Of a stretch of 5,969 bases of DNA, positions 1,775 to 5,000 are shown piece after piece; the stretch's first letter is position 1, and the number at the start of each line of letters is the position of its first letter. The translations under genes and the position numbers were made by a program. The DNA is from a bacterium (GTDB taxonomy: Bacteria; Coprothermobacterota; Coprothermobacteria; Coprothermobacterales; JAADFF01): positions 1 through 5,969 of the forward strand of contig JAMORD010000122.1 in NCBI GenBank assembly GCA_027063755.1, written 5' to 3'. The notes under the pieces were generated by a model. That model ran no database searches. It was not told the DNA's origin and worked only from the letters and a program-made list of their open reading frames with translations.

Positions 1775-2536
1775 ATGGAAAGAATATACATACTGGATTC
1801 AGGTATAGGTGGATTGGCTCTACTAAGAGATTTGTGTTTTTTGGAGGCAAATGCCTCTATTTTTTTTGTTGCCGATGCAAAATATTTTCCATACGGTGAG
1901 AAGTCACAAGAAACTCTTTCTAATATATTTGATTTTCATGTGGCTGCTGCAAAACTCCTTGGCTTTGAAAAAGTTGTTGTTGCTTGTAATACCATGTCTA
2001 CAGTAGTTATGGAGGAAAAATATAAAATACCCGTATGGCATCTATTCCAAGGATGGGGAGAGCATTTATCTATGTATAATCGTCCCCTTGTGTTGGCCAC
2101 TAGTCGTACAATAGATAGTGGTATATATCAGAGACTTACCCATGGTATGGGGATATATAGTAAGGCTACACACCTTATCAGTGCCATTCAGCATGGCGAT
2201 GTGGGCACAATTAACAGTTGTCTACACGATATACGCAATGTGGCTATACGGGAAGGGGTTGATGCCATAGTGCTTGGGTGTACACACCTGTCATTTATAA
2301 GGGAGATGTTTTATCAGACAATGCCACCTAATGTGGAGATAGAAGACCCCTTATGGCATATGGCCCGAAGGATATTTGCCACTACAGGAGCAGGGCAAGT
2401 TATACTGGAAGGCGTGGGTAGCACCGACCCTGTGTATAATCCGATAGATGCTGTGAGGTCTATCCCCGGAAGTGAGGTGATTAGAGGGTGCAAGCGTTCC
2501 AAAACGGGCCTTATTCAGGGTATATGGCTATTTTAG
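1775..2536 (+). CDS. Glutamate racemase-like protein (Asp/Glu racemase superfamily)
   Basis: Glutamate racemase (MurI/RacE) makes D-glutamate for peptidoglycan by a two-cysteine mechanism. This 253-residue protein keeps the signatures: LDSGIGGL (D8, S9), DAKYFPYGEKS (about 34-44), VVACNTMS with C71 and VLGCTHLS with C169 and H171, so both catalytic cysteines are present. It departs from typical MurI after each motif (CNTMS for CNTAT/CNTAS, GCTHLS for GCTHYP, EDPLWHM in place of the usual D-S-G-like segment), and the C-terminal 50 residues do not resemble the family. It may be a second racemase or one with altered specificity. An in-frame stop at 1769-1771 makes ATG 1775 the first possible start, yet no ribosome binding site precedes it. 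The 3' end overlaps the next gene by 49 nt. Confidence 0.8.
   Translation: MERIYILDSGIGGLALLRDLCFLEANASIFFVADAKYFPYGEKSQETLSNIFDFHVAAAKLLGFEKVVVACNTMSTVVMEEKYKIPVWHLFQGWGEHLSMYNRPLVLATSRTIDSGIYQRLTHGMGIYSKATHLISAIQHGDVGTINSCLHDIRNVAIREGVDAIVLGCTHLSFIREMFYQTMPPNVEIEDPLWHMARRIFATTGAGQVILEGVGSTDPVYNPIDAVRSIPGSEVIRGCKRSKTGLIQGIWLF
2474..2481 (+). promoter_or_regulatory. Ribosome binding site fixing the GTG start at 2488
   Basis: GAGGTGAT is an eight-base match to the anti-Shine-Dalgarno complement and lies 6 nt before GTG 2488, inside the coding end of the racemase-like gene. It favours GTG 2488 over ATG 2524, which has only a weak CAGGG close by. Confidence 0.65.
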
Positions 2537-3081
2537 CTGTAGCAATAGTTATTTCTCTTATATATGCATATCTCACTAAGGGTAAGCAGGCTGTGTTTTC
2601 CACTATAGCTGGCACCATGCTGGCTGTTGGTTTGGGATTGTTTACATCTCATATAGCATATATTGTGTTAAATATGCCTATGCATATAGCCAAAAAATAT
2701 CTCTTTTATCCTATTGGGTTTGTTCCACAGGGATATTTATTGGGGCATCTTGTATTTGGCATGGTGTTTGCCTTTTTACTATCTCTAATAGAACCTTCTG
2801 ATGGTGAAATAGTTGCTCTTACTATTATGCTTCAAGTGGCAGCCATATTTCCACCTCCATACAGTTATGTTGTTGGACTTCTCTTGCTTGTGATGTTTTG
2901 GTCCAAATCTATGTGGTATCGCATAGGAGGTTGTGTTGTCTTTTCTGTAGCACTTGTGCTGTATAATGTTAAATGGGCTCCACTAATGGGGCTACCATAT
3001 AAGATTGCCTTAGGAGGTAGTATATTGGCCTGTTTACTTGCACTGCTTGTAGTGTATAGAGGTGAGACGAATGAATTTTAA
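2488..3081 (+). CDS. Uncharacterised multispanning membrane protein
   Basis: The 197-residue product is almost wholly hydrophobic. Candidate membrane segments are at about residues 13-29, 36-61, 83-101, 107-122, 124-138, 145-161 and 172-190, giving six or seven spans with very short loops. There are charged groups at 31-33 (KGK) and an acidic loop IEPSDGE at about 101-107 between spans 3 and 4. I recognise no family and see no transporter or enzyme motif. The gene begins within the racemase-like gene (49-nt overlap) and its end overlaps the DUF4446 gene by 11 nt, so the three are probably translated together. Followed by DUF4446, M23 and bactofilin genes, it is a candidate membrane component of an envelope module; that role is inferred from position only. 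Confidence 0.8.
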   Translation: MQAFQNGPYSGYMAILAVAIVISLIYAYLTKGKQAVFSTIAGTMLAVGLGLFTSHIAYIVLNMPMHIAKKYLFYPIGFVPQGYLLGHLVFGMVFAFLLSLIEPSDGEIVALTIMLQVAAIFPPPYSYVVGLLLLVMFWSKSMWYRIGGCVVFSVALVLYNVKWAPLMGLPYKIALGGSILACLLALLVVYRGETNEF

Positions 3082-3505
3082 TGTGTGGTATGCCATATCG
3101 GCTATTGCTGTTATGTTGCTTATTTTGACTTTTTTCAATGTCTATATGTTTCTCAAATGGAGACAGTGGGGTAAACCTGGTCATGTTATAGAGGTGTTAG
3201 AAAACCTCACAGAAGATGTAGAGGCTCTACGAGAGGATGTTGATGAATTGAAAGAGCAGATAGCCCTTATCCCAGGTAGATGGCGTGTTGCCCGCTATGA
3301 TGCTATCCCGGAAGAGAAAGGCAAGAAAAGTTCCACTCTTGCTGTTATCAATGAGCATGGTGATGGCTGGGTTATTACTTCGCTTACCATGACAGGTGCT
3401 TCTCGTGTCTACATCAAGAATGTAAGGGGGTGGAGATGTGAGGAACCGTTCTCATTTAGTCCCGAAGAAGAACTTGCTATTGAAAGCATCAAGAAGGAGA
3501 TATAG
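3071..3505 (+). CDS. DUF4446 family membrane-anchored protein
   Basis: The 144-residue protein has one N-terminal membrane span (about 6-28), a heptad-like acidic coiled coil (about 38-63, VIEVLENLTEDVEALREDVDELKEQI), and a C-terminal domain. The domain matches the DUF4446 pattern as I remember it: VARYDAI, then a serine-containing strand (STLAVINEHGDGWVITSL), then RVYIKNVRGW, ending in SPEEELAIESIKK. The family has no established function; in clostridial genomes it often lies near M23 peptidase, bactofilin or chromosome-partition genes. I chose ATG 3071 because AGAGGTGA (3058-3065) ends 5 nt upstream; GTG 3062 lies within that site. The gene overlaps the preceding one by 11 nt and the following one by up to 68 nt. 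Confidence 0.85.
   Translation: MNFNVWYAISAIAVMLLILTFFNVYMFLKWRQWGKPGHVIEVLENLTEDVEALREDVDELKEQIALIPGRWRVARYDAIPEEKGKKSSTLAVINEHGDGWVITSLTMTGASRVYIKNVRGWRCEEPFSFSPEEELAIESIKKEI
3424..3432 (+). promoter_or_regulatory. Ribosome binding site supporting GTG 3438 for the M23 gene
   Basis: AAGGGGGTG differs by one base from AAGGAGGTG and ends 5 nt before GTG 3438. It lies inside the DUF4446 coding sequence. No other in-frame start of the M23 gene has comparable spacing: ATG 3570 directly abuts its GGAGGT, and ATG 3543 and TTG 3480 have no clear site. Confidence 0.5.
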
Positions 3506-4547
3506 GCCCAGTAGAAGGGCTGTAGATATTCATTATTCTTTTATGGTTTCAAGTAATAGACATGGAGGTATGATCAATGTCTCTATCGGTAGATGGCAAG
3601 TAAAATTGCTTGCTGTTGTGCTTATGGTATTCTTTGCCACATTTGCCTTAATGTCTGCTCAGTTATGGGCCTACACACAGATGAAGATTGTGGCGGTAAG
3701 AGATGCTAAACTTGTATATGCCTTTCAGGCGTATGATGAGGCCCGTAGTAAAGAAATTTCCTCTTTGGTGACCAAGACCAATGAACTGCAGTATAAACTT
3801 GACAAATTACTTGCCGGTATCAATGAAATTAATAGTGTACTTGTTTCTACTGGCAAAGAGCTTAAAGGGGTTAAAGGCGCATCAGAGCTTGGTGTGGCGG
3901 CGGCTTCAGACTTATCGTTCGCTTTCACGGCAACTGCATCAGATTCTACAGCATCTACAAGCACCTTGTCACCGGCATTTGCCTTGTCTTCATCTGTTGA
4001 ACCATACTCTGAATATGGTGTAACCAATCAGATGGATGAGTTGAAAGATGCAGACCTTGTGCTTGAGCATATCTCCAACACATTGGTTCGCCTTGGTGCT
4101 GTAAGCAGCGAGATATCCAGCGACGCCAGTAAATATGTTTCCCTTATGGATCATGTACCCACTTTGTGGCCTGCCCATGGTAGATTTACTGCAGGCTTCG
4201 GATGGCGTAGAGATCCTGTTGTTCCCGGTCGTTGGGAGTTTCATAAGGGTATAGATATTGCTAACTCTTGGGGCACTCCTGTATATGCTGCTGCATCTGG
4301 TAAGGTTGTGTGGACAGGTTGGAATGGTGGATATGGAAAGTCTATTATTATAGACCATGGCAACGGTATAAAAACTATATATGCTCACCTGGAGAAGATA
4401 GAGGTCAAGATAGGTCAGGAAGTCAAGAAAGGACAAGAGATTGCCAAGATGGGGTCTACTGGTAGGAGTACAGGTCCCCATCTGCACTTTGAGGTTCATG
4501 TTAATGGTGTGGCTGTAGATCCTCTGAGATATCTCAGCAGAAAGTAG
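3438..4547 (+). CDS. Membrane-anchored M23 (LytM-type) peptidoglycan endopeptidase
   Basis: M23 enzymes are zinc metallopeptidases that cut peptide cross-links in peptidoglycan. The 369-residue product begins with a basic cytoplasmic stretch, has one membrane span (about 55-78), an extracellular coiled coil (about 88-140), an A/S/T-rich linker (about 145-190), a second short helix, and the LytM domain from about 245. Zinc ligands H269, D273 (HKGID) and H350, and catalytic histidines H317 (YAHL) and H348 (HLHF), are all present, so it should be active. The closing VDPLRYL is also typical. The start is uncertain. GTG 3438 has the best ribosome binding site but puts 68 nt inside the DUF4446 gene; TTG 3480, ATG 3543 and ATG 3570 are alternatives. 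HYSFMV before ATG 3543 resembles the start region of related proteins, which favours an upstream start. The bactofilin gene follows closely. Confidence 0.92.
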   Translation: MRNRSHLVPKKNLLLKASRRRYRPSRRAVDIHYSFMVSSNRHGGMINVSIGRWQVKLLAVVLMVFFATFALMSAQLWAYTQMKIVAVRDAKLVYAFQAYDEARSKEISSLVTKTNELQYKLDKLLAGINEINSVLVSTGKELKGVKGASELGVAAASDLSFAFTATASDSTASTSTLSPAFALSSSVEPYSEYGVTNQMDELKDADLVLEHISNTLVRLGAVSSEISSDASKYVSLMDHVPTLWPAHGRFTAGFGWRRDPVVPGRWEFHKGIDIANSWGTPVYAAASGKVVWTGWNGGYGKSIIIDHGNGIKTIYAHLEKIEVKIGQEVKKGQEIAKMGSTGRSTGPHLHFEVHVNGVAVDPLRYLSRK

Positions 4548-4552
4548 GAGGG
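4546..4552 (+). promoter_or_regulatory. Ribosome binding site of the bactofilin gene
   Basis: AGGAGGG overlaps the TAG stop of the M23 gene. Three consecutive ATG codons follow at 4553, 4556 and 4559; spacing (0, 3 and 6 nt) favours the third. Confidence 0.7.
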
Positions 4553-4558
4553 ATGATG

Positions 4559-4972
4559 ATGTTTGGCAGAAAGAGAAGGGTTAGCACCGATATTGGACTC
4601 TATGTAGGAGCTCATACTACGGTAGAGGGGAAAGTGTTTTCTACAAAGGGTGCTATTAATATAGCTGGTTCATTTAATGGTGATATTGTATCTCAAGATT
4701 TGGTTATTGTTTCAGAAGAGGGTAAAGTACAGGGTACTATAAAGGCCAAAGACCTTCATGTATTTGGTAAGGTCAATGGTATCGTAGATGTGGAGAATGA
4801 ACTTGTGATAGGCATGAGTGGTCTTGTTGAAGGAGAGACCTCTTATGGTAGTCTTCATGTGGAAGAAGGTGGTCAGATAAGAGGTAAGATGTCTCCTCGC
4901 GGAAAAGTTTCAGATAGTGGTGATAAGCCTAAATCATCTAAAAAAGATACTCCTAAAAATAATAAAAAATAA
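4559..4972 (+). CDS. Bactofilin (polymer-forming cytoskeletal protein)
   Basis: Bactofilins (DUF583) polymerise without nucleotide into filaments, often at the membrane, and position cell-wall enzymes. This 137-residue protein has a short basic head (MFGRKRRVS) and a core of about 90 residues with the repeating G-x-I/V β-helix pattern: GLYVGAHTTVEGKVF, GAINIAGSFNGDI, GKVQGTIKAKDLHVFGKVNGIV and GLVEGETSYGSLHVEEGGQIRG. A lysine-rich disordered tail follows (about 112-137). It lies directly after the M23 endopeptidase; bactofilin-M23 pairs that shape the wall are established in other bacteria (for example CcmA with Csd1 in Helicobacter), so a functional link is likely. It is the last gene before a strong terminator. 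The start is one of three tandem ATGs; the third has the best spacing. Confidence 0.95.
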   Translation: MFGRKRRVSTDIGLYVGAHTTVEGKVFSTKGAINIAGSFNGDIVSQDLVIVSEEGKVQGTIKAKDLHVFGKVNGIVDVENELVIGMSGLVEGETSYGSLHVEEGGQIRGKMSPRGKVSDSGDKPKSSKKDTPKNNKK

Positions 4973-4973
4973 A

Positions 4974-5000
4974 GGGAGCCGTAAGGCTCCCTTCTCTTTT
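4974..5000 (+). terminator. Strong, probably bidirectional rho-independent terminator
   Basis: A perfect 7-bp stem GGGAGCC/GGCTCCC (4974-4980 and 4985-4991) with a GTAA loop is followed by TTCTCTTTT on the plus strand. On the opposite strand the A-rich run before the stem (about 4961-4973) supplies a U-rich tract. It sits between convergent genes, bactofilin (+) and fchA (−), and can serve both. Confidence 0.9.

Follow-up and report, generated by a model that had tools for sequence, protein, structure and literature searches.

We have analyzed a window of 5,969 nucleotides (assembly GCA_027063755.1, contig JAMORD010000122.1), one contig of a 1.5 Mb draft genome belonging to a member of the Coprothermobacterota, in the order of Coprothermobacter proteolyticus. 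The original prediction made for this DNA had assumed a clostridial setting, which has to be given up, as the host does not belong to the Clostridia. The window carries a tRNA-Leu gene on the reverse strand (302-390), followed on the forward strand by the genes of SepF (437-907) and SmpB (909-1361) and by a tmRNA (1413-1762) with the tag ADYDYALAA. After these comes a tightly packed run of five forward-strand genes. It is opened by a MurI-like (glutamate racemase-like) gene at 1775-2536 (PF01177, 4.9e-12) and continues with a membrane protein of 197 amino acids and six to seven spans (2488-3081) that matches no family, a DUF4446 protein (3062-3505; PF14584, E 1.3e-15), an LmdC-like M23 endopeptidase (open reading frame 3438-4547, opening with GTG 3438; PF01551, E 4.3e-40) and a bactofilin (4553-4972; PF04519, E 5.5e-21). 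A bidirectional intrinsic terminator (4971-4994), with a stem of 9-10 pairs and a T-run on both strands, lies between the bactofilin end of the run and a cyclodeaminase gene that converges on it. The original prediction had described four genes on the same strand between 2488 and 4972, overlapping or nearly touching and closed by a single terminator, and both the coordinates and the gene identities were borne out. What did not hold was the beginning of the run, since the racemase-like gene overlaps the membrane protein gene by 49 nt. Only 12 nt separate the end of the tmRNA from the start of the racemase-like gene, so that the tmRNA and the wall genes may be on a common transcript. In a genome of the same genus (G001), flagellar hook-associated genes, fliW and csrA are found a few kb upstream of this region (L021 1-2180). 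Coprothermobacter proteolyticus is described as nonmotile.

Several of the gene starts could be placed more precisely. The position of a Shine-Dalgarno sequence makes ATG 3071 the likely start of DUF4446, which then overlaps the stop of the membrane protein gene by 11 nt. The place of the M23 gene in the packed row stands as predicted, and its start, which had been left open, is probably, again by Shine-Dalgarno position, TTG 3474 or 3480. This would produce an overlap of about 26-30 nt with DUF4446, and it is backed by the M23 genes of Coprothermobacter, which likewise begin about 20 nt within DUF4446. The likely start of the bactofilin is ATG 4559, 11 nt past the M23 stop, with a Shine-Dalgarno AGGAGG ending 6 nt before it; the protein would begin with MFGRKRR, and its counterpart in a relative with MFGRRRR. 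When the run was compared with G001, the dN/dS was well below 1 for all its genes and changes at third positions predominated, indicating purifying selection on a real gene row and not a chance arrangement.

The MurI-like protein keeps both catalytic cysteine motifs (ACNT and GCTH). Its score against TIGR00067 was 99.9 bits, below the curated cut-off of 146.65, a value that no genome in the Coprothermobacterota exceeds. It is the sole good match to this family in its own genome, the other match being weak, and judged by its sequence it is the best candidate for D-glutamate supply there, which would make the whole run wall-related. All nine Coprothermobacterota genomes contain MreB, suggesting that the bactofilin unit could act together with the elongation machinery.

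The M23 protein has intact catalytic motifs (HKGID and HLHFE) and consists of a short, hairpin-like cytoplasmic tail, one membrane span, a coiled coil and the M23 domain. In most M23 proteins encoded before a bactofilin, the span is immediately preceded by a short cytoplasmic tail following the pattern FTxMIIPHS...(strand)...P. The window protein has the tail AVDIHYSFMVSSNRHGGMINVSIGRW at this same position, with a strand-turn-strand look, but the sequence has diverged from the pattern of the relatives and has lost the common 'PHS'. In the small phylum of genome G053, where there is no bactofilin, the tail is cut to seven or eight residues and shows no hairpin. The charge rule gave a mixed result for the M23 partners (27 N-in, 14 C-in and 18 ties), and we have therefore taken their orientation from the substrate and from LmdC. 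Because the substrate of the enzyme is the wall, the coiled coil has to lie on the outer side of the membrane.

The identity of the DUF4446 protein is secure, its score being 58.1 bits over a curated cut-off of 27.4 for PF14584. By the positive-inside rule, the C-terminus is cytoplasmic in each of the 231 DUF4446 proteins examined, and the predicted topology is a single N-terminal span with the helix or coiled coil and the head in the cytoplasm. In an AlphaFold2 model built from 53 sequences (pLDDT 90), a long helix (3-33) crosses the membrane and another (36-66) follows; the fold is completed by a sheet of four strands and a helix at the C-terminus. Residues S87, G99, K116, E132 and E133 and an RYDAF motif are conserved over the family. 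A sequence search for solved relatives returned coiled-coil look-alikes only, and the best hit of the model in Foldseek had an E of 0.21. The highest VIA-align Z values were 5.9 for the helices and about 4.5 for the head (a cystatin-like affimer, 45 residues, 2.4 A), in both cases within the range of common arrangements. A literature search over open-licence papers found none on DUF4446, in agreement with the earlier description of an uncharacterised family; it has no assigned function.

We have examined the gene order around DUF4446 in other bacteria, starting with the Bacillota, where 174 of 249 genomes contained it. Among 60 Bacillota loci sampled down the match ranking, an M23 gene was found downstream in 36, a bactofilin in 33 and both in 32. 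ParB was located just upstream in 22, the complete series ParB-DUF4446-M23-bactofilin appeared in 10, and 12 had none of these genes. The 2 kb or less downstream of DUF4446 in these loci (119 kb in all) held 36 M23 and 34 bactofilin matches, against one M23 and two bactofilin matches in the remaining 327 kb, all of them in a tandem copy of the cluster at one locus. At that locus (L239) DUF4446 is followed by two tandem M23-bactofilin pairs. Over the total of 90 Bacillota loci, 50 of 50 M23 and 46 of 46 bactofilin matches lay downstream of DUF4446 and shared its strand; the sampled genomes being related, such counts overstate the number of independent events.

The same pattern appeared in other phyla. 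A scan of the collection with a narrowed profile gave 80 loci, mostly from Armatimonadota, Actinomycetota and Lachnospiraceae. Bactofilin came right after DUF4446 in seven of them and nowhere else in 593 kb, the seven being Chloroflexota-type, Actinomycetota or further bacteria (outside the named records, phyla were labelled after the centre genome). The trio DUF4446-M23-bactofilin was present in Coprothermobacterota (the window, G001 and G008), in Bacillota and at one Chloroflexota locus (L135), while Chloroflexota and Actinomycetota also had DUF4446 with bactofilin and no adjacent M23. The three genes are thus the recurrent unit that had been predicted, kept in the same order and on the same strand in several phyla. 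Within the Coprothermobacterota the DUF4446-M23 pair was found in all three families, with one genome (G007) giving no DUF4446 match. Bactofilin was found in two of the families and is missing in Coprothermobacteraceae, where DUF4446-M23 persists. In the three genomes of the G053 phylum (L028, L141 and L142) the pair is located beside rsmG and bactofilin is absent from the genome. Both the window and 19 kb surrounding the region in G001 were free of parA/parB and padC.

The distribution of DUF4446 is wider than that of the unit. Bactofilin was absent from 30 of 42 DUF4446 genomes in one sample, which rules out that DUF4446 is a dedicated bactofilin partner. Elsewhere it adjoins unrelated genes (a sigma factor, pheA, infB or serS), and its presence far from M23 and bactofilin, together with that in bactofilin-free genomes, indicates a role broader than the unit. 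In Armatimonadota (L027, L049, L053 and others) genes for an ECF-type sigma factor and a likely anti-sigma protein come after DUF4446, and in Patescibacteria (L079 and L086) it stands directly before infB. No match to DUF4446 was obtained in 14 control genomes; LmdC and bactofilin work in Proteobacteria without it.

We moderately favor the explanation that DUF4446-M23-bactofilin is an old cassette of fixed order, a wall-remodelling unit of bactofilin/LmdC type, in which DUF4446 would be a membrane-anchored adaptor on the cytoplasmic side. Its recurrence in the same place and order across several phyla makes it the probable third component that had been missing. Anchored by its single span, with helix and head in the cytoplasm, DUF4446 would bind the tail or the span region of the M23 protein and, where present, the bactofilin filament. 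The endopeptidase would thereby be held and licensed at one site of the membrane. In many Bacillota this site might be near the ParB-origin complex, because the DUF4446 genes follow parA-parB. In the genus of the window, the added multi-span protein probably tunes the same envelope process.

Other explanations can be drawn from the same gene orders. DUF4446 could regulate the M23 enzyme alone, as a gate of the wall hydrolase on its cytoplasmic side, bactofilin being an optional localiser. The DUF4446-M23 pairs that do without bactofilin in Coprothermobacteraceae and in the three G053-phylum genomes, the latter also devoid of the hairpin tail, fit this, but the DUF4446-bactofilin pairs of Chloroflexota and Actinomycetota, with no M23 beside them, do not, and we regard such a regulator as possible but doubtful. 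An adaptor touching both partners from the cytoplasmic face is consistent with the two kinds of pairs, since DUF4446 stays with M23 where bactofilin has been lost and with bactofilin where no M23 gene adjoins. It could also be that DUF4446 is part of the parAB locus, after parB as is common in Bacillota, and that M23 and bactofilin are mere passengers of a stable region near the origin. However, Coprothermobacterota, Chloroflexota, Actinomycetota and the G053 phylum show the same linkages in the absence of parAB, order and strand being unchanged, and hitchhiking of this kind appears unlikely.

The original prediction went in another direction. It saw the six-to-seven-span protein as possibly the core membrane side of a complex, touching DUF4446 and shared with it across the Clostridia, with the coiled coils of DUF4446 and M23 in contact. 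The overlapping reading frames speak for it, and so does the selection on the membrane gene, with a dN/dS of about 0.11 outside the overlap against G001, the values of its neighbours being lower (the protein evolves two to four times faster than the neighbour proteins). Some Bacillota (L200, L206, L211 and L226) have, just upstream of or near DUF4446, a different seven-span protein, DUF554-like by eye. The window protein, however, is not detectably related to these DUF554-like proteins (no Pfam match, hhalign probability 0.1), and having a membrane protein beside DUF4446 arise twice may be a coincidence. It matched nothing in Pfam or NCBIfam, and searches of 60 and then 290 genomes placed it in the genus of the window only (two of the 60; two clear matches in the 290), the one homologue, in G001, being 81% identical. 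A partial match (E 0.008) to a 441-amino-acid protein, obtained with a two-sequence profile over the 290 genomes, was judged to be due to chance. A single-sequence model gave seven helices at low confidence (pLDDT 59, pTM 0.36).

Both sister families have DUF4446-M23 without the membrane gene. In one of them (five genomes) the racemase gene directly abuts DUF4446, and in the third family of the phylum DUF4446 heads the row. The gene is therefore a lineage-restricted insertion, an add-on rather than a core part; it is a genuine, selected accessory gene restricted to the genus. The membrane protein had been expected, if the idea failed, to occur apart from the other three genes; what we found is the reverse, the other genes occurring without the membrane protein. 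As to the coiled coils, the membrane is predicted to separate them, that of DUF4446 being in the cytoplasm and that of M23 outside, which makes a mutual contact unlikely. Taken as a whole, a core built on the six-to-seven-span protein is very improbable.

A broader version of the adaptor can be formulated, in which DUF4446 would generally tie the origin/ParB machinery and the bactofilin filaments to the M23 cross-link cutter in several monoderm and deep-branching phyla. We consider this generalization rather unlikely. If true, it would amount to a so far unnoticed connection between chromosome position and the local opening of the wall. Bactofilin-M23 is an established shape module, and for its make-up beyond Proteobacteria the conserved and well-modelled DUF4446 gives a direct handle. 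As it comes after parA-parB in many Bacillota, it also allows a connection between chromosome segregation and wall cutting to be tested.

There are known systems with similar components. The Helicobacter system CcmA-Csd1/Csd2-Csd5/Csd7 (PMC9507126) likewise combines a bactofilin with an M23 enzyme and non-enzymatic transmembrane proteins; the likeness of DUF4446 to Csd5/Csd7 is one of architecture only. In Myxococcus xanthus, PadC couples bactofilin to ParABS (PMC5703909), and the Bacillota rows similarly connect bactofilin with chromosome segregation genes. Here, in contrast, there is no PadC, the window is without parAB and the link comes from gene order only. Bactofilin can have an amphipathic N-terminal peptide that targets it to the membrane, for example MFSRKTE (PMC12448750), which the MFGRKRR of the window bactofilin resembles by eye only. 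The closest case is the bactofilin-LmdC module of Hyphomonas neptunium and Rhodospirillum rubrum. According to published work (PMC10945521), bactofilin polymers in alphaproteobacteria recruit an M23 DD-endopeptidase by its cytoplasmic hairpin tail, shown for LmdC to bind bactofilin, after which peptide cross-links are cut locally by the enzyme. As in the window (M23 ending at 4547, bactofilin beginning at 4553 or 4559), the genes for bactofilin and a single-span M23 protein are adjacent there, and the M23 proteins of both have a short tail on the cytoplasmic side, a span, a coiled coil and an M23 domain that is intact. The window differs in the diverged sequence of its hairpin tail and in belonging to bacteria outside Proteobacteria, and it adds a gene directly upstream of M23. 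The local cutting of cross-links by a bactofilin with an LmdC-like M23 enzyme is known; what is new here is DUF4446 as the third gene, fixed in its order.
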